DNA of 64,000 nucleotides from Pedobacter aquae (GTDB lineage Bacteria > Bacteroidota > Bacteroidia > Sphingobacteriales > Sphingobacteriaceae). Under the pieces are notes generated by a model. That model ran no database searches. It was given only the letters and a program-made list of their open reading frames with translations, and had not been told where the DNA came from. A program made the translations under genes and the position numbers. Positions 39,939 through 61,900 of this stretch are shown piece after piece (the stretch's first letter is position 1; every line of letters starts with the position of its first letter). The stretch covers positions 1,922,001 through 1,986,000 of the forward strand of contig NZ_CP043329.1 of assembly GCF_008195825.1 (NCBI RefSeq), read 5' to 3'.

Positions 39939-39954
39939 TAAATTAATTGTAAAA

Positions 39955-39979
39955 GGGAAGCTGTTTTATACAGCTCCCC
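39955..39979 (-). terminator. Probable intrinsic terminator between GH10 and GH3
   Basis: On the minus strand a hairpin GGGGAGCTGT/ACAGCTTCCC with a 5-nt loop and one mismatch is followed by TTTTAC. It lies 34 bp past the GH10 stop and just before the GH3 start, so GH3 expression may depend on read-through or its own promoter. Confidence 0.6.
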
Positions 39980-40012
39980 GATAAGTTTAGTCCCATATGG
40001 TAATAGCATTTT

Positions 40013-41287: not shown

Positions 41288-41376
41288 AAAAATTGCTTTT
41301 TGGTTTTATAATGGTGAATATTAAATTTTAAAGCTGTTCCTCCTTTCGTTGTTAAGAGCATTAATAAATATTGTTT

Positions 41377-42807
41377 TTAAATATCCTTCTTAGGATTATC
41401 ATAAAACTTGATAAGATTATACACGTTATCGTTCATGATTTTCATTTGCTTTAATAATGGTTGATACCTATTAAAGTCTGAGTCTACAATCCCTTTATTG
41501 GAATCTCTATTAGAATAGTCTACCTTTAAATTATTTGGATCATTATCTTGATAAGTAAACCAATGCCAGCCAACGCAATTTTTACTTTTAATAAGCTCAT
41601 TCACAAAATTCTGATAGAAATAGCCTCTATCTAACTGCGTTTTAACTATCCAACCTGCACCAGTGGTATTTTTTAAGCCAGAATCTTCTCCTTTAGTATA
41701 CCATTCTGTAATTAAAAAAGGTTTACCGCTCCATTTACCCCAGTTTTGTAATTGAAGAGAATCTGGCTCCCACATTCTGTAATGGTTAATAGAAATAATA
41801 TCCATATACTTACCAGCAACCTTAAAAATTTCCGGATTGGTTAATTCCTGACGATTTTGCTGATTGAATCTACAACCTAAGTACATGTGGTTAGGATCAT
41901 ATTTTTTAATAGCTTTTGTAACCTTTTGCATGTAGGTCTCAAAATAATAGCCTGAGAATGCTAATCTATCCTCTTCTGTAATATCTTCTATACCAGCAGT
42001 TTTACCCTTACGTTTATTTAACCAGTTACTTGCCGCTATATATCCAGCCTCGTCTTTGGCTAATTGTGTTAAGTGAATATCTAATGCATCAGTTTTCCAA
42101 GGAAGTTCATTATCGGTATAATAACCTAAGAGATATTTATCTTCTTTATATTTTACAATTTCTTTAATTGCTTTTTCAACGTGAACATCAAACTCAGAAT
42201 CAAAAACCATTGCTAAATCAAAACGATAGTTTTGCCAGCCTGCTACTTTATATTTACCACCAAAACGCTTAATATGTTCTTCTCTATAATTCCCCATTGG
42301 ACTAATTATAATAGTGTAAACCAGGGGTTGCTTAGCTGCTCTTAATAAATCTACCGCAGACCAGCTTCCGGCTCCATTAAAGCCATAGCTTCTTAACATA
42401 GCAACCTCTTCTTCTCTCCAGCGCTCTTCTGTTTGGTATTTCTGTTTTAACATTTCTTTTTGATGGTCTGATGAGCCTGGCCTAAAAACAGCTACTGCTT
42501 TATGTATAAAAGGGTAACCCTCTGGATCAATAATCCACCAACGACCATCAATTTGCTTGGTTGTAAAAAAACCACTTGCTTGGACCTGATTTACTTTCCA
42601 ACTACCATATTGGTTTAAGATTGGCTCTTTTTTAAATTTAAAATTTGGAATCTTGTCTAGTGTTTTTGCCTTAAATTGCAACCAGACACTATCTTCTTTA
42701 GACTTTTTAACGTCTACCAAGTGGTAATTAACAGGATTTTGTGCCCATAAATGGGTTAAGAAAATTAGACATAAAATGCCTATTAATGATAATTTGTATT
42801 TCATCAT
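41377..42807 (-). CDS. Clan GH-A glycoside hydrolase, GH50 agarase-like
   Basis: A 476-residue exported protein (signal peptide ending HLWAQ). The opening QASGFFTTKQIDGRWWIIDP, then EGYPFIHKAV, resembles the start of GH50 beta-agarase-type barrels. The probable acid/base Glu234 is in GYYTDNELPW and the probable nucleophile Glu368 in FLITEWYTKG, as in retaining clan GH-A enzymes. Agarose as substrate is not implied: many relatives occur in loci for other glycans. It lies 25 bp after the GH10 at 42833 and 89 bp before the other, so it likely acts with them on xylan-derived oligosaccharides. Family assignment is tentative. Confidence 0.75.
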   Translation of the reverse strand: MMKYKLSLIGILCLIFLTHLWAQNPVNYHLVDVKKSKEDSVWLQFKAKTLDKIPNFKFKKEPILNQYGSWKVNQVQASGFFTTKQIDGRWWIIDPEGYPFIHKAVAVFRPGSSDHQKEMLKQKYQTEERWREEEVAMLRSYGFNGAGSWSAVDLLRAAKQPLVYTIIISPMGNYREEHIKRFGGKYKVAGWQNYRFDLAMVFDSEFDVHVEKAIKEIVKYKEDKYLLGYYTDNELPWKTDALDIHLTQLAKDEAGYIAASNWLNKRKGKTAGIEDITEEDRLAFSGYYFETYMQKVTKAIKKYDPNHMYLGCRFNQQNRQELTNPEIFKVAGKYMDIISINHYRMWEPDSLQLQNWGKWSGKPFLITEWYTKGEDSGLKNTTGAGWIVKTQLDRGYFYQNFVNELIKSKNCVGWHWFTYQDNDPNNLKVDYSNRDSNKGIVDSDFNRYQPLLKQMKIMNDNVYNLIKFYDNPKKDI

Positions 42808-42832: not shown

Positions 42833-43930
42833 TTATTTTAAACCAGCTAGGAAACCAAAGTAAGCAGGCTTTTTAGCATATGATTCATCAAAAAGTAATG
42901 GATATTCTTTAAAGCCATTTGCACTTTCTTTAAGCCAAGTGTATTTATCAGTTATTCCCCACGTTGTGATAGCAAATTTTTGATTGGCAGGTATAGCATT
43001 ATAAAGTTTAACGATGTTTTTATAAACCTCTGCTTGTTTTTGTTTATCAGCATCTGTTAATACATAGGTACTTACATTATTAGTATTTACTTTAATATCT
43101 ATTTCAGAAATATGTATTAATAAGCCGGTACTTACTAAATCGGCAAATCCGTTACTTATTTGAGTTTGGTTTGTAGAAATACGATAATGAAATTGGTCTC
43201 CTAAACCATGAATTGGTACTCCGCTTTCCTTAAATCTTACGGCCATTTCCTTCATGGCTCTTCGTTTTCCGGCGGCCAACACTACGCTATAATCGTTATA
43301 AAATAATTTAGCAGCCGGATCTGCCTCGTTAGCATACTTAAAACATCTACCTACAAAAGCGATTGGATCTTTAAATTTTCCTTGTATTTGAGATTCTACT
43401 CTTAATGAACCATTATCATTAAAAATCTCATTGGCTACATCCCAGCTTTTGATTTTCCCTTTATATCTTCCAACAACAGTTTGAATAAAAGTTTTCACTT
43501 TATTTTCGAAAGTAACTGTATCATAATTAGCATTTTTAAACCATTCTGGAAAAGATTTATACCACAACAAAGTATGGCCATGTACATCCATATTGTTTTG
43601 TTGAGCATAATTTACCAGATAATCGCAATCAGCAAAAAAGTAAGTGTTTTCTGCTGTCCAAATGAAATTCATTTTCATCTCATACTCTGCAGAAAGCTGA
43701 TTAAACTCTCCTTTAAAAGTATTGTTATAAGCGCTTTCTCCTTTAATCAAATCTGATTTTACAGCTGCACCAAATTTAAAATTAGCTACATCTTTAATTT
43801 TTTCTGTTGATGTAGGAGGTGTAACTACTGGAGGCTCAACTACAATAGGTTTCTCTACTGTATTTTTCTTACACGCTGTTGTTGCCAACATTAGGAAAGA
43901 GATGTATAAAAGTACTTTTCTCATAATCAT
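42833..43930 (-). CDS. Endo-1,4-beta-xylanase, GH10 lipoprotein
   Basis: A 365-residue lipoprotein (lipobox ATTAC, Cys20; an in-frame ATG two codons later could also start it). A proline/valine-rich linker (residues 25-45) leads to the catalytic barrel. It has GHTLLWYKSFPEWF, acid/base Glu168 in SWDVANEIFNDNG and nucleophile Glu276 in LIHISEIDIKV. It is shorter than the other GH10 in the locus. An upstream box and -7 element shared with susC (44015-44082) mark it as the head of its own regulated unit, GH10 then GH50-like then GH10. Confidence 0.93.
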   Translation of the reverse strand: MIMRKVLLYISFLMLATTACKKNTVEKPIVVEPPVVTPPTSTEKIKDVANFKFGAAVKSDLIKGESAYNNTFKGEFNQLSAEYEMKMNFIWTAENTYFFADCDYLVNYAQQNNMDVHGHTLLWYKSFPEWFKNANYDTVTFENKVKTFIQTVVGRYKGKIKSWDVANEIFNDNGSLRVESQIQGKFKDPIAFVGRCFKYANEADPAAKLFYNDYSVVLAAGKRRAMKEMAVRFKESGVPIHGLGDQFHYRISTNQTQISNGFADLVSTGLLIHISEIDIKVNTNNVSTYVLTDADKQKQAEVYKNIVKLYNAIPANQKFAITTWGITDKYTWLKESANGFKEYPLLFDESYAKKPAYFGFLAGLK

Positions 43931-44014: not shown

Positions 44015-44082
44015 CAAATTTCTATTTTAGAATTGGGGTTAAAGGGTGTCTTTTTTCCTTAATTAAGGGCTTAAACGTACTT
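44015..44082 (-). promoter_or_regulatory. Predicted HTCS-type operator and promoter of the GH10 unit
   Basis: TTAAACGTACTT (44071-44082) is followed on the minus strand, after exactly 52 nt, by TTTG (44018-44015) inside TAGAAATTTGT. The same 12-mer and the same 52-nt spacing occur upstream of the first susC (58732-58799). There is no -33 element, which fits an activator-dependent promoter. The leader to the GH10 ATG is about 80 nt. Confidence 0.6.
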
Positions 44083-44145
44083 TAAAATGTTAATCATTAG
44101 TTTTAATTAGTTTACGCTCTTCCGGAGCTTTCATTAAACGCTCAT

Positions 44146-45399
44146 CTAAAGCAGAGTAACTGAATTTTTCAATAAATTTCCACGTTTATCAAATACTAGC
44201 ATGTGTGTAGTTTGAGGCGAAATAGCAGATTGATAGTTTTTAGCTAAACCAGCTGCTATATTTATACTCACATGTTTATTTGTTTTTTTCCTATTAAATT
44301 GTAAATGATATTCAAATGCTTTCTGCTTACTTTTATTAAGTAACATTACTGTCATTCCTTCTTTATCTCCCATAGGAATAACTACTATTTCTTTCTGGCT
44401 TTCTTGATGTGGTAAGTAATAAGCTCGCTTGTAACGAGACAATAACCAAGTATGGTAATAATTAGACCTTTTTAAATATTGATTATTTAAAAAATCAAAC
44501 ATACTCAGGTCTGTTCCTTCTCTATCTGCACCTCCTTCTAAAATACTCCAAGGGCAAATGGTAAAAGCTTGCTCTCGCATGCCTAAATCGTATAATTCGG
44601 CAAACATTTGTCCATTATAAAAAGTATAAGGCTGATAATCTTCTTCTAACTTCTTATCTACCAACCAATGCGAATTAAACTCTGTAATAGCCCAAGTTAA
44701 ATGATGCTTTTTTGCTCTATTTTTATTTAGAACATAGAGCTTCTGCTTTAAATCTTTTACATCAGTTTCAAACCTGCTGATATCTTTAAATTTGTAATGA
44801 TGAAACGAAACTACATCTAAATAATAATAGTCTTTACCTGATATTTTACCAGTTAAATCTAAATCGCCACCAAGCAGCCTGTTATGATAATCAGGAGTGA
44901 AAGAAGCAGCATCAAACCCAATAATTTTTACATTGGCATCGTATCTTTTTATTTGCTCGCTAATTTTTGTAAAATAATCATACACTTCTTCTGGTTTTGC
45001 AAACTGATTTTTGTGATCAGGTTCATTACCGATACTCCAAAACTTAACTCCCTTTTTGTTTTCTCCATTGATATAAGTAATGGCTTTAAAAGCTAGGTCG
45101 TTATTTTTAAATTGACGCGGCATTTGCAAAATAGGTTCTGCACCTACAGATCTTACATAATCAATTAACTTTATAGCTTCTTTATTGATAAAACCTGCAT
45201 TTTCATACCCATTACCCCCAATTCTTATGGTTTGATACTGAACATCTTTTACAAACTCTTGAACCTTAAAAATTCCACTTCTTTCCCATGCATTTTGTCC
45301 GAATAGATAATTGCTAATCTTGATTTTCTTAGGATAAACAGATTGTGCAAACAAATGCCCTCCGAAAAATATATACAGAAAAAAAAGTAAGCATCTCAT
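44146..45399 (-). CDS. Exported clan GH-A glycoside hydrolase, family uncertain
   Basis: A 417-residue protein with a signal peptide (residues 1-19, ending LFAQ). The barrel has strand ends TIRIGGNGYENAG, FWSIGNEPD with probable acid/base Glu126, DVVSFHHYKF, and AITEFNSHW with probable nucleophile Glu240. This pattern fits the retaining clan GH-A and is nearest in flavour to GH39, GH44 or GH51 enzymes, but none could be chosen with confidence. A small C-terminal beta domain (MTVMLLNKSKQKAFEYHL) follows. It lies between a terminator hairpin and the GH10 promoter. Expression may rely on read-through from the upstream operon. Confidence 0.7.
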   Translation of the reverse strand: MRCLLFFLYIFFGGHLFAQSVYPKKIKISNYLFGQNAWERSGIFKVQEFVKDVQYQTIRIGGNGYENAGFINKEAIKLIDYVRSVGAEPILQMPRQFKNNDLAFKAITYINGENKKGVKFWSIGNEPDHKNQFAKPEEVYDYFTKISEQIKRYDANVKIIGFDAASFTPDYHNRLLGGDLDLTGKISGKDYYYLDVVSFHHYKFKDISRFETDVKDLKQKLYVLNKNRAKKHHLTWAITEFNSHWLVDKKLEEDYQPYTFYNGQMFAELYDLGMREQAFTICPWSILEGGADREGTDLSMFDFLNNQYLKRSNYYHTWLLSRYKRAYYLPHQESQKEIVVIPMGDKEGMTVMLLNKSKQKAFEYHLQFNRKKTNKHVSINIAAGLAKNYQSAISPQTTHMLVFDKRGNLLKNSVTLL

Positions 45400-45414
45400 A
45401 TTTATTGCATTAAA

Positions 45415-45447
45415 ACAAAGCGGAGAATATGATTATCTCCGCTTTGT
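45415..45447 (-). terminator. Intrinsic terminator after the T9SS surface protein gene
   Basis: A perfect 12-bp stem (arms ACAAAGCGGAGA and TCTCCGCTTTGT) with a 9-nt loop is followed on the minus strand by TTTAATGC. It lies 5 bp past the stop at 45452 and ends the transcript that runs from the first susC. Confidence 0.75.
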
Positions 45448-45451
45448 ATAT

Positions 45452-47110
45452 TTATTTAATAATCTTCTTACTGATGTTTCCTGTTGCAGTTTTTAAGGTT
45501 ACTACGAGTACATTTTTAGCATTTACAGGTATCGTAAAAGAATTATTCCCTTTAGAAAGCTTAAGAGAGGTTTCTTTAATTTTTCTTCCTGTTAAATCTG
45601 TTATGATAAGATCAGCATTGGTAAAATGAGCTGAATGAATAATGACTTCTAATTCGTCTGAATTTTGCCTACTAAAGACTTTCAAATCAGCTATCTCTAA
45701 ACCAGATTGAACAGCGATTATATCAGATAGGCTAAAAGATCCGTTAAAATCAATTTGCTTTAATTGATAGTAGTTTGTTCCTATTACTGGATTTTCATCT
45801 GTAAAACTGTAAGTAATTTTGTTATTAGAGTTTCCATTTCCATCTATAGCTTTGATTTTTTCAAACTTTTTACCATCGCTAGAACGCATAATATCAAAAT
45901 ATGAATTATTACGTTCAGAAGAAGTTACCCAACTCAGCTGAATGCCACTTTCTACTTTTTTTCCTTGAAAAGAAACTAAACTAACAGGTAAGGTTGCTGT
46001 ACCTATGGCACTACTTCCCTGTGGCGCCATGGTAACACTTCTAAATACTGTGCCAGCAGGCGCTGTTGCTAAAGTTGTTACAGCTGTTGTTGCTGTAGGC
46101 GCAGCAGGAGCTCCGGTTGGTGTTAGGTAGGTATCCTTAAAAGTAATTAATCTAGAAGAACCTGTTCCGGTACCATCATTACCCCAAGTAGTGAGATACA
46201 AAGTAATTTCTGTATTGGCCCCTACTACATTTAACACTCCGGTAATACTTTTAACTAAATCAGTATTTGGACTTGAGCTTATATTAGTTCCAAAAGAAAT
46301 CCAATCTGTATTAGTAGAGTTGGTATAGTATCTTCTTATGGTACCCGTTGCATCATCAACAGCATACATCAACCTTCTTGTGCCTAGCTGAAACTCAATT
46401 ACCTGATTTATAGTTACACCACTACCTAAGCCTGCTCTTGTTATAAAAGTTGTAGATGTTGTTGGCAATGGAGATGCATAAGCTAAAGTAGAGAATGTGC
46501 CAATTGGAGCTATTAAGCTATTATTTATAATACTTAAAGTTCTAGGAGCATTTTGATTTACACTTATTCTTGTTGAGCTGGTTGATCCTAAAGTAGTGTA
46601 TTGAACACCGTTAGTAAAGCCATTAGCCCAGATATTTGTACCATCAATCACTGCGGAACGCGGTGCTCCTAAACCTGTTGTGGGGTCGCTTGAAAGTGTA
46701 GTTGTAGTATTTAAACTTCCATCTGCTGCTATTACACCTACCACTAAACCGTCTGCGGCATTTGGTGCTGTAGAACCTACTGCGGCATTATAGCCAAAAA
46801 TTGTAATGTATTTACCATCTTGAGACAAAGTAGATGCACCCTCTTCTTGATATTTACCAGTTGCTGCTAGCTTTAATAGACCTGTTAAACCTTTGTTTAC
46901 TCCATTAGTTACTGTTGGTACTGCTCTAGTTTTAACTAAATTTCCGGATGTATTATACTCATCTAAAAAAACTGGCACTAATTCTCCGTTGGTATAAGTA
47001 GCACCATTACCGTAGCGGTACACTACCAAATTACCGGATGTAAAACCTTGGGAAAAAGCAATACTCCCTGCTAGTAACATAGCACCAATTAAAAGTAATT
47101 TTTTCTTCAT
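45452..47110 (-). CDS. PUL-encoded surface protein with T9SS type A sorting domain
   Basis: A 552-residue protein with a signal peptide (ending IAFSQ). Residues 25-370 hold repeated strand-loop blocks (EEGASTLSQDGKYITIFGY, APRSAVIDGTNIWANGF, APRTLSIINNSLIAPIG), which look like blades of a beta-propeller. Residues 375-465 (VSLVSFQGKKVESGIQLSWV) form a fibronectin-like module common before sorting tails. The last 80 residues (LKVFSRQNSDELEVIIHS, ITDLTGRKIKE, VLVVTLKTATG) are a T9SS type A sorting domain. No catalytic motif is seen. It lies 38 bp after GH2 in the susCD transcript, so glycan binding at the cell surface is a fair guess. Confidence 0.75.
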   Translation of the reverse strand: MKKKLLLIGAMLLAGSIAFSQGFTSGNLVVYRYGNGATYTNGELVPVFLDEYNTSGNLVKTRAVPTVTNGVNKGLTGLLKLAATGKYQEEGASTLSQDGKYITIFGYNAAVGSTAPNAADGLVVGVIAADGSLNTTTTLSSDPTTGLGAPRSAVIDGTNIWANGFTNGVQYTTLGSTSSTRISVNQNAPRTLSIINNSLIAPIGTFSTLAYASPLPTTSTTFITRAGLGSGVTINQVIEFQLGTRRLMYAVDDATGTIRRYYTNSTNTDWISFGTNISSSPNTDLVKSITGVLNVVGANTEITLYLTTWGNDGTGTGSSRLITFKDTYLTPTGAPAAPTATTAVTTLATAPAGTVFRSVTMAPQGSSAIGTATLPVSLVSFQGKKVESGIQLSWVTSSERNNSYFDIMRSSDGKKFEKIKAIDGNGNSNNKITYSFTDENPVIGTNYYQLKQIDFNGSFSLSDIIAVQSGLEIADLKVFSRQNSDELEVIIHSAHFTNADLIITDLTGRKIKETSLKLSKGNNSFTIPVNAKNVLVVTLKTATGNISKKIIK

Positions 47111-47148
47111 GTTGTAATAATTTAAGTTTATAAGGGTTAGAAAAAGGA

Positions 47149-48969
47149 CTATTTGTATAGTCCTTTTATAGTTTCATAAAAATTATAAAGCGTATAAAAC
47201 GCTTTCTTCTTTTTACCCGTTTCTGAAATAAGCCCTTTACGGTTCCAGAAATTCTGATAAATAGGATGAGGTCTTCTAGGCGATCTAAAATCAACTAAAA
47301 TCCAAGGCGTCATTCCTCTTAAAGCATCAATCTTTTTAAGAATTTTAAACTGATTTTCATAAAGAGCTTCTTGATACTCTTCAGAGAATTTAGTTTCAGC
47401 ATCTGCATGGAAACCACCCAAAGCATCTCCGCCAAATTCTGATATAACCACAGGTTTATCGTATTTTATATCAAAATAGTATTTGGTAATTTCCTTAGGT
47501 GTACCACCCCAATACCAACCTGCGTACTCATTAAAACTTACTAAATCTAGCTTTGCTCCTAAAACATCATCAATAATAACACGGTTACCATCACGATGTA
47601 ATTCTAATGCGGCAGCCACTAATCTGGTATTATCATTATTTCTGGCAACATCTACCAAATTCCCCATAAATTTGTGTCTTGGGTTACTTAAAGGTGTTTC
47701 ATTACCAACAGACCAGATGATAACACTTGCTCTATTTTTATCACGTGTTATTAAATCTGTTAATTGTCCTTTTGCATTAGCATAGGTATCAGGATTTTCC
47801 CACTCTATTGTCCAATAAACTGGCACTTCTGCCCATACCATTAGCCCCATCTCATCTGCAAGACGTAGCATTTCTTCATTATGAGGATAATGAGCAAGTC
47901 TTACAAAATTACAGTTGAGTTCTTTAGCCCAATTCAGTAACATCCTTAAATCACCGGTAGAACGCGGGCGACCTGCAACCATTGGATTTTCATCATGTAT
48001 AGAAATACCTCTTAAAAAAACAGATTTACCATTAAGTAAAATATCTTTACCAGAGGTTTGTATGGTTCTAAAACCAATTTTATCTGCTACGGTATCCGTA
48101 TTAGCTATAATTTTTACTTGATATAACTTAGGGCTCTCTGGAGACCAGTATTGCAATTTTTTTATAGGAATTTTTATGGCCGCATAACCATTGTTATTGG
48201 TTTGGACATTGATATTAAGTTTAGCTTCAGGTATTTGGATATTAAGTTTTTGACTCTTATTACTTCCTTTTAACTGAACAAAACCCTCTAACTCTTGCGC
48301 ATTATTTTTAGCTAACTGTATCTTATAATCATGTATATAAGTATCAGGCAATTCTGCTAAATAAACATCGCGAGTTATACCGCCATAATTCCACCAATCT
48401 GTATTAATAGTAGGTACTTCTTCTTTTCTTCGGGTATTATCTACTTTTAAAACAACAGAATTTTCGCCTGATTTTAGCAAGTCCGTAACATCAAAATGAA
48501 AAGGCGTAAAGCCACCTTTATGAATACCTAATTTTTTACCGTTTAAATAAACATGTGCTTCATAGTTTACGGCAGCGAAATAGAGTAAATACTTTTTACC
48601 ATTTATTGGCTTAGCACTAAATAAACGACGATACCATACCGTACCTTCGTAAAAAGCAAGTTTTTCTGCTTGCGAATTCCAATCAGCAGGTACATTTAAA
48701 GTGGGCTCATAATCAAAATTATATTCTATCAACTCTGATTTATCAACCTCTGTTTTATCATCATAATAACCACCAGTTTTACTGTTAGATTCATCAAAAG
48801 GCTTTCTTCTATAGTCATAAAAACCATTCTCATAAGGGTCTAAAACGTAATTCCATCGACCGTTTAAACTTATTTTTTTTCTTGAAGATATGTTTTGTAT
48901 TAGCCCATCTTGAGCCTTGATAGGCTGCACTAAACATAAAACACATAAAATGGCGAGTAACTTTCTCAT
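47149..48969 (-). CDS. GH2 beta-glycosidase, beta-glucuronidase-like
   Basis: A 606-residue exported enzyme (signal peptide ending PIKAQ). It has a jelly-roll domain (FYEGTVWYRRLF, YLNGKKLGIHKGGFTPFHFD), an Ig-like domain, then the barrel: acid/base Glu424 in VIIWSVGNETPL and nucleophile Glu511 in PVVISEFGGDALGG. The short three-domain layout and the ending FRSPRRPHPIYQNFWNRKGL are like beta-glucuronidases and compact beta-galactosidases of GH2. In a xylan-type locus, removal of side-chain or terminal sugars is likely, but the sugar cannot be read from sequence. It follows the second susD by about 137 bp. Confidence 0.88.
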   Translation of the reverse strand: MRKLLAILCVLCLVQPIKAQDGLIQNISSRKKISLNGRWNYVLDPYENGFYDYRRKPFDESNSKTGGYYDDKTEVDKSELIEYNFDYEPTLNVPADWNSQAEKLAFYEGTVWYRRLFSAKPINGKKYLLYFAAVNYEAHVYLNGKKLGIHKGGFTPFHFDVTDLLKSGENSVVLKVDNTRRKEEVPTINTDWWNYGGITRDVYLAELPDTYIHDYKIQLAKNNAQELEGFVQLKGSNKSQKLNIQIPEAKLNINVQTNNNGYAAIKIPIKKLQYWSPESPKLYQVKIIANTDTVADKIGFRTIQTSGKDILLNGKSVFLRGISIHDENPMVAGRPRSTGDLRMLLNWAKELNCNFVRLAHYPHNEEMLRLADEMGLMVWAEVPVYWTIEWENPDTYANAKGQLTDLITRDKNRASVIIWSVGNETPLSNPRHKFMGNLVDVARNNDNTRLVAAALELHRDGNRVIIDDVLGAKLDLVSFNEYAGWYWGGTPKEITKYYFDIKYDKPVVISEFGGDALGGFHADAETKFSEEYQEALYENQFKILKKIDALRGMTPWILVDFRSPRRPHPIYQNFWNRKGLISETGKKKKAFYTLYNFYETIKGLYK

Positions 48970-49042
48970 ATAATTTGTTAAAGAATAACTTGATAAGGTT
49001 TACTTATGCAAGGTTTGATAATAAATTGCTATTTAATTAAGT

Positions 49043-49069
49043 AGTTAGGCTAGATGCACTGCACCTAAC
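49043..49069 (-). terminator. Weak hairpin after the second susD
   Basis: GTTAGG (minus strand) pairs with CCTAAC around a 15-nt interior in the susD-GH2 gap, with a further AGTA/TACT match outside. The T-run that follows is poor (TACTTAATT). It may attenuate rather than end transcription into GH2. Confidence 0.35.
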
Positions 49070-49106
49070 CTTTACTACTTTAAGAATGAACATTAACCAA
49101 TTAATA

Positions 49107-50780
49107 CTAATTTGTCCATCCGGGATTTTGAACTAATGCAGGTTGCCTATTGATATCTACTAAAGGGAAAGGAAATAAATAATTTTTGCTGGTGAAAATC
49201 CTGTTTTCTACGATAAACCTTTCATAAGTAAAAGAACCGTTTGCTTGTCTGGTGATACGCATACCACTTACTGGCTTGTTAAATTCTGTTTCGCCTTTTT
49301 TCCATCTTCTTACATCATAAAAACGGTGACCTTCAAAACATAGCTCAACACGTCTTTCGTTATGTATCAAATCTCTCATCTGTTCTTTTGATAAAGTTGG
49401 AGAACCTGCTACTAAAAGAGGTAAATTAACACCTGGTCTTCTTCTAACTTGGTTTAAATAAGTATATACACCAGCTACAGGGCCCTGTGCCTCATTTAAA
49501 GCTTCAGCATAGTTTAGCAGAACCTCTGCATAACGTAAAATAACCCAAGGTCTTCTCACATTACTGTTAGATGCTTGATTCCAGGTAGCCGCTTCGCTTA
49601 AGAATTTGCGCATATAATAACCTGTCTTTGTAGCATTTACATTTCTATTTAAACCATCTCTACCATCAACAAAAGTTTCAACTGCTCTGCCTTTAAATAC
49701 TCTGCCATTGTAATTGATATTAAGATCTAGCCTTGGATCTCTTCCTGTATAGGGGCTGTTAGGATTATAACCAGATGTAGGGTCTGTAAGAGGCTTACCG
49801 TTTGCCATACCAAAAGCATCAACCATTTCTTGCGTAGGGTTTGTTCTTCCACTTGCCCCATCAAAACTGATTGGCGCATTAAAGGTTTCTATATCATTAC
49901 GGTTGGTGGCTTGAGTAGCAAAGATTACTTCATTGTTGTATTGCGCTTGATTATAATTAAAAATAGATACATAGCTAGCTTGAAGGCTATGTCTATTTAA
50001 ATCTATTAATGCTTTTGCAGCATCTGCAGCAGCTTGCCATTTTGCTAAATCATTATTAGGATTATTGAGAGGGCTTGCCGCATACAATAGCATTCTTGCT
50101 TTTAATGCCATCGCTGCGGTCTTAGTTGCTCTTCCACGATTAGCAGCACTCCAAGACTGTGTCCATTCTGGTAATTTAACCATAGCAGAATCACAGTCTT
50201 TAATAATTTGATCAACACATTCTTGAAATGTGTTCTTTGGCTGGTCTAAATCTTCTAACCTATCGAAAACACGAGTAGCTAAGATGACACCTCCGTATCT
50301 TTTCACCAAATCAAAATGAAACATGGCTCTTAAAAAAAGAGCTTCTCCTTTTAAACGTGTTTTATCTGCCTGCTCTGTTAAACCATCAACTGGTATAATC
50401 ACAGCTCTATCTACATTTTCTAAAAAAAGATTTACCCTTCTTAAACCTGTATAAAGTGTTGAGTATTGTTCATCAACGGTTCTAACGGGGCTCCAAGTAC
50501 CATTATTAAAGATATTAATGGAAGAACCTACGTTAGAATTAACAGCCTCGTCACTACCAGAAGCTAATAAAGCACCATTTCCATCAATATTATAACCATC
50601 TTGAAGAGATAAATACGCAGTATTTAAAACTCCCCTAGCATAAGCATCATTAGCCCAAACTTGATCTCCGGTTATAGCACCATCTGTAGTGGTACCATCT
50701 TGTAAAAAGCTTTCTTTACAACCAGTTGCTACTGTAGCAGCTAGCATGATATATATTATATTTTTAAATGTCTTGTTCAT
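49107..50780 (-). CDS. SusD-like glycan-binding lipoprotein (second pair)
   Basis: A 557-residue outer-membrane lipoprotein (lipobox TVATGC, Cys21). It has the SusD-type helical TPR scaffold: GEALFLRAMFHFDLVKRYGG in the first half, LKARMLLYAASPLNNP in the middle, and RRVELCFEGHRFYDVRRWK near the end, all family hallmarks. It caps the SusC partner encoded 10 bp upstream and captures oligosaccharide at the cell surface. It is a paralogue of the SusD at 53851: the block LLYAAS followed by KWxAAADAAKALxDLN is shared. Confidence 0.95.
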   Translation of the reverse strand: MNKTFKNIIYIMLAATVATGCKESFLQDGTTTDGAITGDQVWANDAYARGVLNTAYLSLQDGYNIDGNGALLASGSDEAVNSNVGSSINIFNNGTWSPVRTVDEQYSTLYTGLRRVNLFLENVDRAVIIPVDGLTEQADKTRLKGEALFLRAMFHFDLVKRYGGVILATRVFDRLEDLDQPKNTFQECVDQIIKDCDSAMVKLPEWTQSWSAANRGRATKTAAMALKARMLLYAASPLNNPNNDLAKWQAAADAAKALIDLNRHSLQASYVSIFNYNQAQYNNEVIFATQATNRNDIETFNAPISFDGASGRTNPTQEMVDAFGMANGKPLTDPTSGYNPNSPYTGRDPRLDLNINYNGRVFKGRAVETFVDGRDGLNRNVNATKTGYYMRKFLSEAATWNQASNSNVRRPWVILRYAEVLLNYAEALNEAQGPVAGVYTYLNQVRRRPGVNLPLLVAGSPTLSKEQMRDLIHNERRVELCFEGHRFYDVRRWKKGETEFNKPVSGMRITRQANGSFTYERFIVENRIFTSKNYLFPFPLVDINRQPALVQNPGWTN

Positions 50781-50790
50781 CTGCTTACAA

Positions 50791-53700
50791 TTAAAATTTA
50801 AGATTTAAGCCTAGCGAATAGGTTCTTAGGTAGGGATATGATGAGTTATAACCTGCTTCTGGTATTTCAGCATCAATAGGTAAATCTAAATCATCAAACG
50901 TAAGTAGATTAAAACCACTTACATAAACCCTCATAGAGGATAACTTCAACTTTTTAAGTACTTGAGGAGAAATAGTATAACCTATTTCTGCATGCTTTAA
51001 CTTAATAAAATCACCAGAACGTAACCAAAAAGTAGAATTTTGAACATTATTACCTCTATTCGCAAGGGTTAATCTTGGATAAGCTGCAGTAGCGGATGTT
51101 TCTGGTGTCCATCTATCAACACTAAACTGATTGATGTAACCTGTATTATTTGAACCAGCGTTTACTAAATCATTTATTTGGATTGTTCTGCCTCCAACAC
51201 CTTGAAAAAGGGCTGAAAAATCGAAGTTCTTATAGTTGATAGAAGTTCCGAAACCAAAATAAGAAGTTGGAATATTGGTATAATCTGTAGTAACAAAGTC
51301 AAGATTATCTATTACTTTATCATTATTCATATCGCGGTAGCGGATATCACCTGGCTTAACCAATGCAGAAAAACGCTGTACAGGTGCTGCATCTATTTCT
51401 GCTTGAGATTGAAAAAGCCCTTCTGCTATAAGAAAACTCTTGGTAACAGAGCCTCCAACATCAACACCACCAATAGGCTTACCAATATTTCTTTGATAGG
51501 ATGGTATGTTAGCAGGTTCGTTTAAAGCATCTGCCTGGCTTTTCACATAAGTATAATTACCAAATAGCCCAACAGTTACTTTATTAAAAGTTTTGCGGAT
51601 GTTGATTGTTCCTTCTACACCTTTAAAGCTTGCTTCACCTTCATTAACTGCAACCAAATTTTGGCCAATAATTCTAGGTAGTAAATCAGTAGTGAGTAGT
51701 TTTTCTCTATTTTCTTGAAAATAGTCTGCGCTAATAGAAACTACTTGTTTAAACATGTAGGCATCAAAACCTAGACTTGCTTTTTTAGCTCTTTCCCAAG
51801 TTAATAATGGGTTTCCTAACTCTTGCTCGTAAGTAGAAGGCACATTAGAGTAACCGGTTCCAAAGAAAGTTTGAGTACCACCTCTTGAAAAATAATTTCT
51901 ATAAGCAAATTTTCTTGATGTACTTAAAGCATCATTACCTACAATGCCGTATGAACCTCTCAGTTTAAAATAATCTAAAGCTTTGAAAGTTTTAAGAAAG
52001 TTTTCCTCTGTAACTATCCATCCGGCTGAAATAGCTGGAAACCATCCTGCCCTATTGCCAGGCAAGAAATTTTCAGAACTGCCATAGGTAGCAATAAAAT
52101 CAGCAAAATACTTTTGTTTATAGTTATATGATAATCTATTAGCTAATTGCTCTGTCTTATTATCTAAACGCCCAGGCGCTGCACTAACGGCTCTTTGGAA
52201 ACGAGTACTAAAATTAACATTGTGTTTACCAAAACCCCTGATATAATCAAACCCTCCCCAGAACTCATTAGCTCTTATATTACTATTAAAAACTGAGTTT
52301 GAGTATGCAATTGGGGATTGATTTCCGAAACGCGTATACGAACCATCATTTTCTAATTGATAAACTTCATATGATTCATCAAACCCAGATTGATACAAGC
52401 CAGTAACATCATAGGTATAAAAAACATTTGCCGATAACCCTTCTGTGATAAAGTTTAATTTTTGTTTAACATTTAAGGTGGCTAATAAAGTACGATATAA
52501 GTCTGTTCTGTTTCCTCTAGCTTGTATCATTCCTAGTGGATTATTTCTAAAAAGTGCACTTCCACCGTAAGTACCATCGGCATTATAAATAGGAAATGCA
52601 TTAGAAGGAGTTCCGAAAACAGCCGATAAAAAACCGCCGTTCCCATCTCTAGGGTAACGTAAATCATTAACTCTACCACCAACATCCAAGGCAACATCTA
52701 AACTTTTGTTCACACGGATGTCTAGATTAGTTCTAAAATTGTACCTTTTAAAATTAGTATTTGCATTGTAACTGATATTTTCTCCGCCACCATATAAGCC
52801 ATCCTGATTAAAGAAGCTTACATGAGTAAAGTATTTAGCAAAAGAATTCCCACCGCTTACAGTAGCTACATAACGTTGTACAGGAGCAGATTTTTTGATA
52901 AACAAATTCGGAAAATTAACATTTGGATATTTGAAAGGATCTGTTCCATCACGATAAGCGTCTAAAACAGTTTGATTATATTGAGGAGTATTACCATCAT
53001 TTACTTGAGCTTCATTAAATAAAGTAGCATAATTAAATGAATTTAAAGGACTGATTAAATTTACCGGGGTTTGCAAACCTCCTTGAACATCAAAAGTTAC
53101 TTTTGTTTTACTAGCACTTCCTCTTTTTGTAGTTACATAAATAACACCATTAGCAGCATTCATACCATACCAAGCCAAAGAAGCTGCATCTTTTAAAACG
53201 CTTATTCCTTCAATCTCATTCAAATCCATATCAACAAAATCCCTAGCTACACCATCAACCAATACCAGAGGTGCTTGCGAGCTGTTAAAAGAAGACCTTC
53301 CTCTGATTAAAAATGTAGCATCATCTGTACCTGGTCTTGTGCCTGTCTGTTGAATATGTAATCCCGATAATCTGCCTGCTAAAACGTTATTTAGGGTTGA
53401 TGATGGAAGTTGAGGTAAAGCATCGCCTTTAATTGTATTAATGGTTGCTGTAACTTCTCTTTTTTCCTAACTCCGAAAGGTATAAATACGTCATCATCAT
53501 CACTAGCATCTATTAAACTACGATTTAGTATTACCTGAGCATCTTGTAACTCTACTGCAGATTTTCTTAAGGTATTAAAGCCAGGTTTAGTAAAAATAAT
53601 TTGATTAGTTGCGTCTGTCTCTAAAGAAAATGCGCCATTATCATCAGACATCACACCTGTTGTTTTCTCTTGGATAATGATGCTAACACCACTTATAGGA

Positions 53701-53825
53701 TTGTTTTTAGAATCTTTTATCTTACCAGATATGGTAATTTTTTCTTCTTTATTTTGAGCAAAGTTGCTAAAAGCAGCCCCCAGCAATAGAAGAAGAGAAA
53801 TGATATGTTTATATTTTGATTTCAT
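50791..53825 (-). CDS. SusC-like TonB-dependent transporter (second pair, frameshifted at T6)
   Basis: Reconstructed as 1011 residues. A signal peptide (ending FSNFAQ), a carboxypeptidase-like domain (ITISGKIKDSKNNPISGV) and a plug precede the barrel. The N-terminal frame ends at 53391 and the barrel frame begins upstream of 53262; the gap reads continuously as REVTATINTIKGDALPQL, then LAGRLSGLHIQQTGTRPGTD, once one base is added at the T6 run 53460-53465. The usual VVVVGYG box is replaced by DDDDVFIPFGVRKK, an acidic variant. It imports oligosaccharides with the SusD partner that follows 10 bp later. It is 25 bp after the first susD. Confidence 0.9.
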
Positions 53826-53850
53826 CTTATTTAAGTTTAAAGTTTACAAC

Positions 53851-55509
53851 CTATTCCCATCCAGGATTCTGAGTAAGAACACCCTTACTTTTAAATATCT
53901 CTGTTCTTGGAATTGGATACAGGTGCATATAATCAGCAAAAGTTCTTTGGTAGATGCTTGGTAAAACAATAGGATTATAAGTAAAAGAGCCATTAGAATT
54001 TCTTACCACATTCATCCCCATAACAGGCTTATTAATGACTTCTACACCTATTTTCCAACGCATAATATCATACCATCTAAAATCTTCAAAAGCTAGTTCT
54101 ACAGCTCTCTCATGTCTAATAGCTTCTCTCATTTGAGCTTTTGTTAATCCTAAAGGAAGATTTGGCATAGAAACCCTTGCTCTAATAGTATTTATAGCAT
54201 TATAAACCGTATTATCTGGTGCTGCTAAAAATTCATTTTGTGCTTCGGCATAGTTTAATAGCACCTCTGCATATCTAAAAAAGATATAATTAAAGAGTGC
54301 TCTTGCCGTTGTATTTCTGGTATAAACTTCTGGCCACATTTTTCTGCAGTAATATCTGGTGGCTGTATAAATGATATTATTCTCTCTAAAATCATTACCA
54401 TTATTCCACATCTGCATTCTTCTTCCTTGCCAAGGCGCATCATTATAAAGAATATTGGCGTAAAATCTTGGATCTCTACCTGCATATGGATTAGCAGGAT
54501 TATATCCAGAGGTTGCATCAGTAATAGGTTTACCGGTAAGTTGCATTTCATACATATCCACATGGTTTTGGGTAGGATTCATAGAACCCTGTGCACCACC
54601 AGAACCTGGAGACATGATGAAATCTAGTAGCATCCCATCTATAGCTCTTGGACCTCTTATTTTAATCATGATATATTCTGGAGACTCTGCTACATTCATG
54701 ATTTCGCTATAAGTAGGATGTAAGGTAAATGCATTTAAATCCATTAAAGCTTTAGCAGCATCAGCAGCGGCTTTCCATTTATTTAAATCATTTGAGGTAT
54801 TATGTAAGGCACTAGCTGCATATAATAATACTCTTGATTTTAAGGCCATGGCAGCTCTACTTGTAGCCCTTCCATAACTAGCATTATCATAAGAAGGTGG
54901 TAAATTAGTTATAGCTTGGTCTAAATCTGCCACTATAAAGTCTACACATTCTTGATAAGTATTTCTAGGTAAATCAGCATTATCGGTAATTTCAAGAGCT
55001 TTGTCTACAATCGGTACACCACCAAATCTTTTTATCAATTCAAAATATAAAAACGCTCTTATAAACTTCATTTCTCCTTCTATCCTTGTAGGATCTTGAT
55101 TGGGTGTCCATGGCACTGTAGACATTTTCCCTAGCATTACATTGGTAATTCTTATACCGGCGTATGCTCTTTCCCATATTCCACCAATATCATTTAAAGC
55201 AGAACCTCCTCTTTCATAATGATCATGAAATAGACCTTGATTTAATGTTCTGATAGAAACATCGGTATTACCAGAAACCGCTTCATCTGAAGCTTGTGAT
55301 GTTGTACCTCTGTGGTTGTTAAACCTTGCATAATCATCTACTAAAAAGTTATATGCATTATTTGCAAACTGAGAAGCCAAAACAGGATCACTAAATACTT
55401 TTTCCTCTGATAAGGCTACTCCAGGTGCTCTATCGAGAAAGTTCTTCTCGCAAGAAGTAGCTGTTAAAAGTATAACGATGGATACTATAATTTTAAAATT
55501 TTTCATCAT
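53851..55509 (-). CDS. SusD-like glycan-binding lipoprotein (first pair)
   Basis: A 552-residue outer-membrane lipoprotein (lipobox TATSC, Cys20, followed by EKNFLDRAPG as in many SusD proteins). SusD landmarks are GEMKFIRAFLYFELIKRFGG, LKSRVLLYAASALHNT and RHERAVELAFEDFRWYDIMR. It partners the SusC encoded 7 bp upstream in a lidded outer-membrane importer. Fold and length are normal. It shares many blocks with the second SusD, so the two susCD pairs arose by tandem duplication. Confidence 0.95.
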   Translation of the reverse strand: MMKNFKIIVSIVILLTATSCEKNFLDRAPGVALSEEKVFSDPVLASQFANNAYNFLVDDYARFNNHRGTTSQASDEAVSGNTDVSIRTLNQGLFHDHYERGGSALNDIGGIWERAYAGIRITNVMLGKMSTVPWTPNQDPTRIEGEMKFIRAFLYFELIKRFGGVPIVDKALEITDNADLPRNTYQECVDFIVADLDQAITNLPPSYDNASYGRATSRAAMALKSRVLLYAASALHNTSNDLNKWKAAADAAKALMDLNAFTLHPTYSEIMNVAESPEYIMIKIRGPRAIDGMLLDFIMSPGSGGAQGSMNPTQNHVDMYEMQLTGKPITDATSGYNPANPYAGRDPRFYANILYNDAPWQGRRMQMWNNGNDFRENNIIYTATRYYCRKMWPEVYTRNTTARALFNYIFFRYAEVLLNYAEAQNEFLAAPDNTVYNAINTIRARVSMPNLPLGLTKAQMREAIRHERAVELAFEDFRWYDIMRWKIGVEVINKPVMGMNVVRNSNGSFTYNPIVLPSIYQRTFADYMHLYPIPRTEIFKSKGVLTQNPGWE

Positions 55510-55516
55510 TACAGAA

Positions 55517-58500
55517 TTATAATTGAATGTTTAAACCAAAATTGTAAATACGGGATGATGGATACAGAGACTGTACAGAAAACGAGGTGTTAGATAAATT
55601 GATGTTTTCTGGATCTAAATACATACGGAATTTTGTCCATGTATGTAAGTTCTGTCCGTTTAAAAACAATCTTAAAGATGAGATTTTAGCTTTCTTTAAC
55701 CACGTTGCAGGAACATTCCAAGAAAGCTCTGCATTTCTAATTTTTAAATAACTAGCATCTTGTAAGATAAAATCATTTAACCTGTAATTTACATAAGGAT
55801 TTCCTCTAGAATGTAATGCCGGCCAAGTTGCTGTAGCAGCGGTTTCTGGTGTCCATCTGCCCAACTGTATACCATACATTTGTTGACCATTGTTTTGTTC
55901 TGTTAAAATTACATTTGAGCTTACATTGGCAACACCTTGAAATAGTACCGATAAAGAGAACCCTTTATATGCTAACCTTGGGGTTACGCTATAAGTATAT
56001 TCAGGAGTACGAGAGTAACCTATAGCAGTTTGGTCATCATTAGTAATTACTCCGTCTTGATTTACATCTATATATTTTAAATCTCCCGGAATAGATGTTC
56101 CTAATAAATTTTTTGGAGAGTTATCAATTTCTTCTTGAGAGTCATAAAAACCATCCGTAACAAAACCAAAGAACTGACCTAGTCTTTTACCTTCTTGTTT
56201 TTGGTATTCTGGTCTACCTTGTGGTTCATCCCTATTAATAACTTTATTTCTAGCAAAAGATAATTGGGTAGTTAAACCATACTTAAACTGTCCGGTTCGT
56301 TTTTGATAATCTAACTCAATTTCATAACCCTTGTTATAAACTTCTCCAATATTTAATCTTGGATAAATTTCACCATAAGTTTGTAATCCCGATTGTCTTG
56401 CAGTTAAAATATCTGTTCTTTTCTCATCAAATAAATCAAATGTTAACCTGATAGATTCTTTTAAAAATGAGGCATCAATACCAATATTTCTTTTTCTACC
56501 TTTTTCCCAAGTAATATTAGGGTTACCTACAGAACTGATAAAGGAAACCAAATTATTAGTAATAGAATTGGGGTTACCAAATTGAACACCGTTATTTGGT
56601 CTTGACCATGCAGGATTAAAAGAAGTTCCTCCAGAAGCGGTCCCATAATTCTCCAAAAACAAAAATCTTTGATTTGTCCCGTCAATAGATAAATTATCAT
56701 TACCTACAATACCATAACTACCTCTTATTTTTAAAAGGTTAAGCCATGATATATCTTTCATAAAATCTTCGTTGGTAATAGTCCAACCGGCAGAAACCGC
56801 GGGAAAGAAACCATATTGTAATCCTATCGGGAAGTTCTCAGAACCATTGTAAGCTGCATTAAATTCTGCAAAGTATCTGTTATCATAATTATAAGTAACC
56901 CTGCTTACTACACCTTGTGAAGCAGATGGCGGAGCTGTTGTTTGACTAGAGCCTGGACTCTTTACAAGCTGACGAGTACCTAATGCTAATGCTGTAACTG
57001 TGTGTTTTCCAAAAGATCTATTGTAGTAAAGCCCTCCTTGTAAATTAGAACTTATTCTACCATCATAACTTACTAATAAGCCACTTAGGGGCTCGTCTCT
57101 TTGTCTGTCTGGTGATAAAGTAACATCTCCTGTCCTTCTATCATAAACATAAGCCGCCCAATTGGCATTTCTTCTGGTTGTACTATTAAAATAAGAGTCA
57201 TAACCTAAATTGGCTTTAAAACTTAAGCCTTTTACTAAAGACCCTAAATTATAATTTATGTTAAAAGTACTTTCTACAGCATTAAAATCATCATTTCGGG
57301 TTCCCCATCTGGTTAAAACAGCAAGCGGATTCCAGATATTAGTACCTACAGACGGGTTTTGAGCTATTCTACCATCAGGTAGCATAATAGGATAAGCAAA
57401 AGAAGGTGTTTGTAAGATTCTAGAAATCATTCCCTCTACGTTATCATAAGAAAAAGAGTTCGACTGTAAACCAGAAGGTTGATAACGTTTTTGTAGCCTA
57501 CCACCTAGTATAACACCAACAGTTAAATTTTTTGATAATGTGATATCTAAATTTGAACGAAGATTGGTACGATTGTAATCTGGTGTGCTTTTTATGCCAA
57601 AAGGAGAATCAAATTCCTTAAAGATACCTCCTTCATAAAGATATCCAACCATAGCAAAATACTTAATAACTTTTGTACCCCCACTTACTTGTAGATTATG
57701 TTGTGTTTGCGGATAATATTTTTTGTCACATAATCAAACCAATTTACGTTGGGATAACCTAATGGGTCTGAACCATCTTTAAATTTCTGTAGTTCTTCTG
57801 CTGTCCATGTCTCGGTTAAATTGTCATTCCTATTAGCTTCATTAATAAGGAGTGCATTATCATAAGCACTTAAAGCCTTGGGGATTCCTGTATAGGTTTG
57901 TATACTGGCATTACCTGAATAACTCACTACTGGTTTACCTACTTTACCTGATCTTGTAGTTACTAAAATAACCCCGTTAGCTCCTCTGATACCAAAAATT
58001 GCCGTTGATGAAGCATCTTTTAAAACAGAGATTGATTCTATTTCATTAGGGTCTAATTGTCCAAAATCGGGTCTTTCTATACCATCTACTATTACTATTG
58101 CAGATGAATTACCATAAGTAGCTGCACCTCTAATATTAATAACCGAGCCGTTAGCTCCAGGTTGTCCGCTAGCTTGTACAGTTGTAACACCAGTTAAACG
58201 TCCTGCCAAACTATTGGTAACATTAGCTACTGGAGATTGCAAAATTTCTTTAGTTTGAATAGTACTAACAGCACCTGTTAAAGTTGCCTTTTTTTGTTCT
58301 CCGTATCCTACTACAACTACTTCATTTAAATTATTTACACTTTCTACAAGTACTACTTGTATGACAGATTGGTTTCCTACCGTAATTTGTTGAGAGAGAA
58401 AACCCAAATACTTAAATTCTAATACGGCTTGTTCATTAGGTACTCTAATAGAAAACTCTCCATTAGCTCCGGTTATCACTCCGTTAGTAGAATTTTTCAC

Positions 58501-58677
58501 TAATACACTTACACCTGGAAGGGTTAAGCCTGTTGCATCTTTCACGGTTCCTGTTACTACCTTATTTTGTGCTAAAACTTCTACTGTTATTAAACATAAC
58601 ATTAAGCATAGGCTTCGCTTAAAATAAGTTAATAGGATACCGCACTTGAAATTTTTCTTCTTGTAAAGACTTTTCAT
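55517..58677 (-). CDS. SusC-like TonB-dependent transporter (first pair, frameshifted at T6)
   Basis: Reconstructed as 1053 residues. A long N-terminus with a signal peptide (ending VEVLAQ) precedes a carboxypeptidase-like domain (VVTGTVKDATGLTLPGVSV), the TonB/SusC motif NEVVVVGYGEQKKATLTGAV and the plug. The N-terminal frame ends at 57685 and the barrel frame starts upstream of 57652. The stretch between reads YYPQTQHNLQVSGGTKVIKY when one base is added at the T6 run 57719-57724, joining the halves. It is the first gene of the PUL transcript, with a predicted HTCS-regulated promoter at 58732-58799. It would import oligosaccharides across the outer membrane with its SusD. Confidence 0.92.
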
Positions 58678-58731
58678 TTGAATAAGTTTGGTTTAATAAT
58701 TTGGTTGTGTTACACAAGACTGGCAACAGCA

Positions 58732-58799
58732 CAAAGATGTATAGATAATGAAAAAGCAGAGGGATTCATCTGTACGTAATTGAGGTGTTAAACGTACTT
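58732..58799 (-). promoter_or_regulatory. Predicted HTCS-type operator and promoter of the susCD operon
   Basis: TTAAACGTACTT (58788-58799) lies exactly 52 nt from TTTG (58735-58732, within TACATCTTTGT) read on the minus strand. A second half-site GTACGT (58772-58777) gives either an inverted repeat or, on the minus strand, two TACGT copies 18 nt apart. The box and spacing recur at the GH10 promoter. No -33 TTTG is present. The leader to the susC ATG is about 54 nt. Confidence 0.65.
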
Positions 58800-58921: not shown

Positions 58922-61900
58922 TTAATCTGTTTGTTTAACAGACTGTAAAAATTCAGAAGGAGATAATTGATATTGTTTTTTAAATTCTTTACTAAAATGT
59001 TTTCTATCGTTAAAGCCTACCATATACGCAACCTCTGCAATAGAGAAAGTAGAAATTTTAAAAAGCTCTGCTGCCTTTTTTAATCTCATTTGTTTAATTA
59101 ATTCTGCTACAGAATAACTGGTAAGTGTTTGAACTTTTTTATAAAGAACAGTCCTGCTCATCCCTATTTCATTTACTAATTCATTAACATCAAATTCTGG
59201 ATTACCCATTTTATCTTCAATAATGTGTATCAGTTTTTGAATAAATTTTTCTTCCGGAGATGTTATAGCAGTATTACTTGGCTGTAAAATTACTTGCTGA
59301 CTAAATTTTTCCCGCATCACCTCTTGAGCTTTTAGTAGATTCCTAATATTTAACAATAATATTTGCAAACTAAAAGGCTTAGAGATGTAGGCATCAGCCC
59401 CTATACTTAAACCATCTACTTGATGAGCTACTGAAGCTCTGGCTGTAAGTAAAATAAAAGGAATATGACTCGTACTTTCTGATGATTTTGCTTTCTCGCA
59501 AAGTTGTAACCCATCTAAACCGGGCATCATGATATCACTAATAATTAAGTCTGGAATTTCTTCTTGCATGTAATCCAAGGCTAATTGACCATTTGTAAAC
59601 TCTACTATTTCATACTCATCTCTTAAAGTATCAGCTATTAAACCTCTAACCTCATCATTATCTTCTGCAATTAATAATTTATACTTTTTATTTTGGTTTG
59701 ACACCTCTGCTTCATCATGGCTATAAGCTGGTACATGATAAGGCATGAAAGATTTTTGATAATTCTCTATGTATGCAGATTCTGAAACAACTTCTGATTC
59801 TGCTAAATGATTCTTTCCAGTTCTGAGCTCTATGGTGAAAACAGTAAGCTTATTTTCAGCCTGCTTACTAGAAACTCTAATTTTACCTCTATGCAGTTCT
59901 ATAATACTTTTTGATAATGCTAAACCTATACCACTACCAATATTCTGATGCCCTCTATCATCAACCTGAAAAAAACTATCAAAAAGTTTATTCTGGAAAT
60001 CTTCTGGTATTCCTTTTCCCGTATCAGTAACTTTAATTTCTATCCAATCTTTATTTCCTTCTTGGTAAGCTATCTCAACTTTTATACAACCATTATCTGG
60101 CGTAAACTTAAAAGCATTAGATAGCAAATTAAAAATCACCTTTTCTAACTGATTTTTATCAAAATACAGAAAAATTGGTTCTTTAGGTGCAACAAATTGA
60201 TAATCTATGTTCCTATCTATGGCTAAGTTTCTAAAAGATTCATAAATATCTTTTGAAAAAGGGATTATATCTTGGTAACTACAATATATCCTCATATGCC
60301 CTTCTTCTGCCTTCCTAAAGTCAAGAAGCTCGGTAACTAATTTCATTAATCTATCTGCATTATTTTTTATAAGCTCTAGCTGTTTAATAAATTTAGGATG
60401 GTTATCTCCAGATATTAACCTTTCTAATGGCCCTAATATTAATGTTAATGGAGTTCTTATTTCATGAGAAATGTTAGTAAAAAAGTTCAATTTCATTTGA
60501 TAAAGCTCTTGTTGCCTTTCATTTTGCAAATGTTCTAGATATAAATCACGTTTTAACCGAGCTCTATTTCGTAAGAAATTAATAATTATACTTGATACTA
60601 AAACTATGATTGCAGCATAAAGCAGATATGCCCACCATGTTAACCACCAAGGTGGCAAAACAATTATCTTAAGATTTGTAACCTCATTACTCCAAACGCC
60701 ATCATTATTAGAAGCTTTAACTTTAAACAAATGAGAACCAGGTGCAAGGTTTGCAAAATTTACAACTCGCTGTTTTCCGGTTAGTTGCCAATCTTCATTA
60801 ACAGAAAATCCTTCAAGTTTATAAGCATATTGATTATTTTCTGGATTTATAAAATTAAGTGCAGCATATTTTAAACTTATATTAGCTTGATTATAATCAA
60901 CGGTTATTTCTTTTAACTCAGAAATAGACCTTGATAAAGGAGAATCATCACCGTTAATTTTAACTGCTTTATTATTAATTAGTATTTCTGTAAGAACAAC
61001 TTTAGGTGCTTTCTTATTCTTAATGATTTTCTCAGGATAAAAAATGGATAATCCATTCATTCCGCCAAACAGTAGTTCATTGGTTTTAAGCCTTACAGCT
61101 GCAAGCGTTGAAAACTGATTACTAATTAAGCCATCATTTGCAGAATAATTTGTAATCTCTATATCTTCTTTTTTAAAGGGCAATGAAAACTTCTTGAAAC
61201 TGAGTTTGAACATGCCTACATCAGTACTTATCCAAATATTTTGTTTACTATCTTCTACAATAGAGTGTACAACATCATCTTCTAAGCCTAATTTCTTATC
61301 TATAACATAAAATCTTTTTGATTTTTTATCAAAGTAATTTAAGCCCCCCCTTCTGTACCTATCCAAAATCTTTTTTTTGAATCTTGATAAAGGGTTGTTA
61401 TGTTATTGTTGCTTAATTGAAACTTAGTATCTCTAACCTTTTTATAGAGCTTAGTGAGTTTACCTAAACTTGTATCATAAAAATTTAAACCGTTTTGAGT
61501 TCCAATCCACAAATTGTTATTTTCATCCTTTAATAGGGCAGTTACAAAATTATCGCTCAGAAAACTTAGGTTTGGAGAACTTAAATAAGAAAAATAGCCG
61601 TTTGGAACTACATCTCTAATATTTAAAAAATTTTGTGGTTTTTTAAATCGATTGATAGCTAGTTGCTCTGTATTTTTCCGTAGGTATACAGGAGATTCTC
61701 CGTTTGGCCTAACAAACCTTAGTCCACCACCATTAGTACCTACCCAAACACCATCATTATCAGGTAATACGGTTAAAATAAGGTTTTCACTAAACTTTCC
61801 ATCTTTAACAGGAAAGCTAAAATATTTAAATTGTTTATTTGCTTTATTAAATAAACTTAAACCATCTAAAGTACCTACCCATAAATTTCCCTTTCCATCA

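Follow-up and report, generated by a model that had tools for sequence, protein, structure and literature searches.

Does a 12-bp box that recurs upstream of a susC gene and of a GH10 xylanase gene mark a common control site, and which regulator would read it? Within the window, by which we mean the whole 64-kb stretch of DNA analyzed, exact copies of TTAAACGTACTT occur at 58788-58799 and 44071-44082, as the preliminary description had reported, and nowhere else. Read on the minus strand, the gap between box and TTTG is exactly 52 nt at both sites, in the contexts TACATCTTTGT and TAGAAATTTGT, and neither promoter carries a TTTG at the -33 position. The preliminary description had held that many copies of the box with its spacing elsewhere would speak against a shared site; our genome-wide scan found no such copies. 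The genome (3,854,044 bp, one contig) contains six copies of the box itself. The other four have no TTTG within 100 nt and represent repeated sequence of a different kind, coding ORF where checked. These copies lie in repeated sequence at G000:143925, 592296, 919833, and 3316037 (L001, L002, L003, and L006), the one in L001 at the 3′ end of a 192-aa ORF starting with MAKNHHLFKFLF.

We assessed how often such a pattern arises by chance. In Markov-simulated windows of 64 kb, ~1,100 pairs of repeated 12-mers arose, of which 5-14 shared a TTTG offset; the real window has 1,898 repeated pairs in all. Because of these background numbers, a 12-mer with a shared TTTG offset is unconvincing when taken alone; by itself, it is within chance and not significant. 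A scan of 150 relatives for the exact 12-mer followed by a variable gap and TTTG returned nothing beyond chance matches, since the relatives do not conserve the exact 12-mer.

As judged by comparative genomics, the pattern is genuine. Eight related genomes encode relatives of the window HTCS that are 52-69% identical to it, in neighborhoods holding SusC/SusD pairs, GH2, GH10, GH3, and the 552-aa protein at ~40-80% identity, incomplete in some genomes. Intergenic regions of these relatives, before susC, GH2, the 552-aa gene, or GH10, share a conserved element that reads roughly rTACrTTTArACCCYTnATTnAGTACAnnnAnACaCCYT. The GH10-promoter site is kept in four genomes, the window's own (G000) and those of three other species (G008, G017, and G012), whose GH10 orthologs are 68-73% identical. 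In G012, the HTCS gene is followed directly by GH2 and not by susC, and the site still follows the HTCS gene.

The box is thus a real shared site, as had been proposed, but the conserved unit is longer than 12 bp and comprises the two operator intervals listed in the table below. Each operator spans 39 bp and consists of two ~14-bp half-sites in direct repeat, with a consensus of about ACAWTTTTACCCCT and starts 22 bp apart, equal to two helical turns; the 12-bp box takes in the 5′ portion of the first half-site and two further bases. Over 23 sites, operator self-identity was 0.54 at period 22 and at most 0.42 at any other period, and the cleanest copy, in G192, is a perfect repeat, ACAATTTTACCCCT-N8-ACAATTTTACCCCT. 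This architecture revises two details of the earlier reading. The TACGT lying 18 nt from the susC box, formerly taken for its second half-site, is incidental, as self-identity at period 18 is only 0.24. The GH10 copy had been said to lack a second half-site; both copies in fact have a partner 22 nt downstream, which is degenerate before GH10, making the proximal half-site weak there. An inverted-repeat reading, GTACGT...ACGTAC, was considered for the susC site and rejected: it is missing before GH10 and in the relatives, and the period-22 direct repeat fits all sites. We found no signal of concerted evolution of the half-sites within a genome.

Features of the window discussed in the text (all coordinates are window positions)
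Feature	Position	Strand	Details
HTCS regulator gene	58922..63120	-	Pfam: beta-propeller (Reg_prop), Y_Y_Y, HisKA, HATPase_c, Response_reg, AraC-type HTH
Operator before susC1	58759..58797	-	GTACGTTTAACACCTCAATTACGTACAGATGAATCCCTC; 33.6 bits with other-species matrix, best window match
susC1 operator half-sites	about 58782-58795 and 58760-58773	-	period 22
Presumed -7 element, susC1	58732..58739	-	CATCTTTG (CAnnTTTG), 23 nt past operator
susC1, TonB-dependent SusC/RagA transporter	55517..58677	-	TIGR04056, TIGR04057; orthologs 59-69%; first target
Genes after susC1: susD1, susC2, susD2, GH2, 552-aa protein, 417-aa protein	44146..55509	-	
Operator before GH10	44042..44080	-	GTACGTTTAAGCCCTTAATTAAGGAAAAAAGACACCCTT; 31.3 bits with other-species matrix
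GH10 operator half-sites	about 44065-44078 and 44043-44056	-	
Presumed -7 element, GH10	44015..44022	-	GAAATTTG, 23 nt past operator
GH10 xylanase	42833..43930	-	PF00331, E 2e-83; second target
GH10-downstream genes: 476-aa agarase-like GH, GH10, GH3	37725..42807	-	gaps 25-89 nt

The distance between operator and TTTG is close to invariant. TTTG stands at +22/+23 in 22 of the 23 sites, compared with a background of 1.9%, mostly in the form CATATTTGT or CATCTTTG; the sole exception is the site before GH2 in G012, which has TTTA there. Bacteroides promoters carry TAnnTTTG at -7 and TTTG near -33 (PMC7366714). The window promoters have the TTTG core of that sigma-ABfr element within their presumed -7 elements, and two differences set them apart. 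The sigma-ABfr promoter has a TTTG at about -33, whereas the window promoters lack it; there, the proximal half-site ends in CCCYT at a distance of 22-23 nt from the presumed -7 TTTG and takes up the -33 position. Moreover, the sigma-ABfr -7 element begins with T, whereas the first base is C before susC and G before GH10, off the TAnnTTTG consensus; most relatives also have C.

Visual inspection first revealed the operator layout, together with its TTTG. The scoring matrix was built from 14 sites from other species, contained no window sequence, and did not use TTTG. With this matrix, the susC and GH10 sites rank first in the window (scores in the table), followed by a third match at 9.3 bits; the best score from 200 simulated windows was 20.9 bits. 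Across the 3.85-Mb genome, the degenerate core with TTTG at the right distance matches these two sites and no others, and the reversed control gave 0. A sequence-only covariance model returned the GH10 operator as its best genome match (E 7e-4). The susC site came only eighth in the genome with this model, because the local alignment lost half of the site, and the full-length matrix was used instead.

We extended the scan to ~1 Mb around 80 HTCS genes of named genomes, where scores above 18 bits were confined to close-relative loci. The next real-looking matches, at 16.2 bits in Pedobacter rhizosphaerae and 14.9 bits in P. frigiditerrae, accompany HTCSs that are ~45% identical and have TTTG at +22/+23, and HTCS loci with other DNA-binding domains had no strong sites. 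Over 301 genomes of the family, the operator model matched 15, nine of which are sources of the training sites or the window's own genome and hence provide no proof. Five matched genomes lie outside the matrix (G155, G172, G192, G267, and G333); in all five, the site adjoins an HTCS gene with a related AraC domain and is followed by a susC-like gene, with TTTG at +23. An extra site in G008, also outside the matrix, precedes the orthologous GH10 gene (73% identical) and has TTTG at +22. The match in G015 was rejected as weak and partial, without TTTG and beside unrelated genes.

Conservation of the sites, of their spacing, and of their linkage to related HTCS genes lends strong support to the suggestion that a common activator acts at both promoters and that the adjacent HTCS reads the site. 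The full HTCS domain set is present in the window but spread over two ORFs, 61339-63120 and 58922-61366, owing to a base missing from or added to a run of G near 61340, whereas the orthologs are single proteins of ~1,400 aa. Such 1-nt shifts in or near short homopolymer runs were seen in HTCS (61339-61366), susC1 (57652-57685), and susC2 (about 53440-53470). That a single locus has three frame breaks points to sequencing errors left uncorrected; possibly, the locus is instead decaying, or the HTCS lesion is real. Among the window proteins scanned with Pfam, which cover part of the window's ORFs, there was no AraC-type regulator besides the HTCS; other matches were to sigma-54 and to a hybrid kinase without a DNA-binding domain.

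Downstream of the GH10 operator, the three genes that follow the xylanase gene probably form one unit with it. One of them, located between two GH10 genes and kept in relatives, encodes the 476-aa protein (41377-42807), which has no Pfam match and resembles agarase-type glycoside hydrolases of solved structure (5t3b, E 4e-58; 4bq4). No further operator was found among the genes after susC1. The 552-aa protein encoded there (45452-47110) has no Pfam match, is conserved in the cluster, and carries a weak T9SS sorting tail, making it a probable T9SS cargo; its gene has its own operator in three relatives but none here, where it lies 38 nt from GH2. The 417-aa protein (44146-45399) shows only a weak GH44 resemblance, is 57-64% identical in relatives, and has no solved relative by sequence.

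Taken on their sequence and conservation, the boxes are very likely the 5′ parts of two operators of the adjacent HTCS (58922-63120), which end 22-23 nt before a TTTG-type -7 element. Four other explanations were weighed against this reading. That a 12-mer simply recurred by chance in AT-rich DNA would be in keeping with the simulations, in which more than 1,000 repeated pairs arose and a few always shared their TTTG offset, but it does not account for the scores obtained with a cross-species matrix, the orthologous positions of the sites, or their genome-wide uniqueness with TTTG; the blind matches in genomes outside the matrix already refute it, and we regard it as practically negligible. 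Recent copying from one promoter to the other within the genome, with no shared regulator, could explain why 12 bases of the first half-site are identical. However, the spacer of the GH10 site, AATTAAGG, is common to the orthologous GH10 sites of other species and is not that of its own susC site, and operator sites within a genome are no more alike (identity of 0.66) than sites before the same gene in different genomes (0.69), leaving copying highly improbable.

A different kind of alternative accepts the motif and questions what stands around it. The sites could be real and yet read mainly by another regulator, for instance a paralogous HTCS whose AraC domain is similar. The nearest paralog in the same genome (G000:1583417, 47% identical) matches the window HTCS in the type of its second recognition helix (NDRKYFSKEF), and related direct repeats with TTTG at +23 occur in the paralog's neighborhood. 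Such a paralog-type site reaches 14.3 bits, in contrast to 31-34 bits, and the strong operator tracks the window HTCS and its relatives across genomes, even where the target gene differs; with no second AraC-type regulator gene among the scanned window proteins, we consider this explanation unlikely. Some cross-binding may nevertheless occur, because paralogous HTCSs that are closely related share this operator layout, with weaker matches at 14-16 bits. About as unlikely, if marginally less so, is that TTTG is not the -7 element, its fixed distance being due instead to some other constraint or to a different start site. The C or G that replaces the first T of TAnnTTTG would fit this idea, whereas, of the known -7 consensus, TTTG varies least (PMC7366714), and it keeps its place in all but one of the sites.

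The related repeats that the 1583417 paralog seems to have as its own lie at L068:4557-4595 on the minus strand (G000 about 1569056) and in L113, with ACCCCT cores and a period of ~22; TTTG follows at +23, and one of them stands before a susC-like gene.

If the adjacent HTCS reads both operators, its periplasmic propeller would bind a xylo-oligosaccharide, the presumed ligand, whereupon the kinase would phosphorylate the receiver domain. Two AraC-type DNA-binding domains could then sit on the same face of the helix, bound to the tandem half-sites, the proximal half-site taking the place of the -33 element, so that contact with RNA polymerase would replace the missing -33 contact. In this way, susC1 and the genes following it would be switched on, and the GH10 unit separately. 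We infer activation rather than repression, as well as the start sites.

This layout may be general beyond the window HTCS, because a related repeat at the same distance seems to serve both the 1583417 paralog and the corresponding HTCS in G013. An unbiased search for repeats of period 20-24 downstream of distant HTCS genes was noisy. We therefore offer only tentatively, giving it somewhat less than even weight, the idea of a single promoter grammar common to the HTCS activators of Bacteroidota, in which a period-21/22 repeat places its proximal half-site at a fixed 22-23 nt before TTTG, replacing the -33 box, and specificity resides in the half-site bases. Were this grammar general, HTCS targets could be predicted genome-wide by layout, giving a simple target rule for a very large family of regulators and an explanation for promoters without a -33 box.

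The operators described here add a solid new case to a class of control site already known and do not amount to a new kind of system. According to PMC3878776, direct repeats averaging 21 bp are predicted for 16 Bacteroides HTCSs, and the present sites agree with that class: they have similar half-sites in direct repeat at a period of 22, lie upstream of PUL operons beside an HTCS gene, and are conserved with the orthologous regulator. In the same study and RegPrecise, the operators predicted for HTCS_Hep, HTCS_Man, HTCS_Rgu, and others have 12-16-bp half-sites about two helical turns apart, like those found here, and likewise precede susC/susD and enzyme operons next to the regulator gene. The present operators differ in belonging to Sphingobacteriaceae (named relatives in Pedobacter and Arcticibacter), in their period of 22 and half-site ACAWTTTTACCCCT, and in serving a xylanase-bearing PUL. 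They differ further in the fixed 22-23 nt to TTTG measured here, as the passages of PMC3878776 consulted describe no such strict distance. Direct binding is documented in B. thetaiotaomicron, where the receiver and AraC domains of BT4124 and BT4663 bind the bt4114 and bt4662 susCD promoters in gel shifts (PMC11253607); the ligands and sequences are other than those of the window HTCS, for which binding is predicted. Compared with these systems, the locus provides, for an HTCS of the xylan type from outside the gut Bacteroides, a well-defined predicted operator, a predicted regulon of two operons, and a strict promoter distance.
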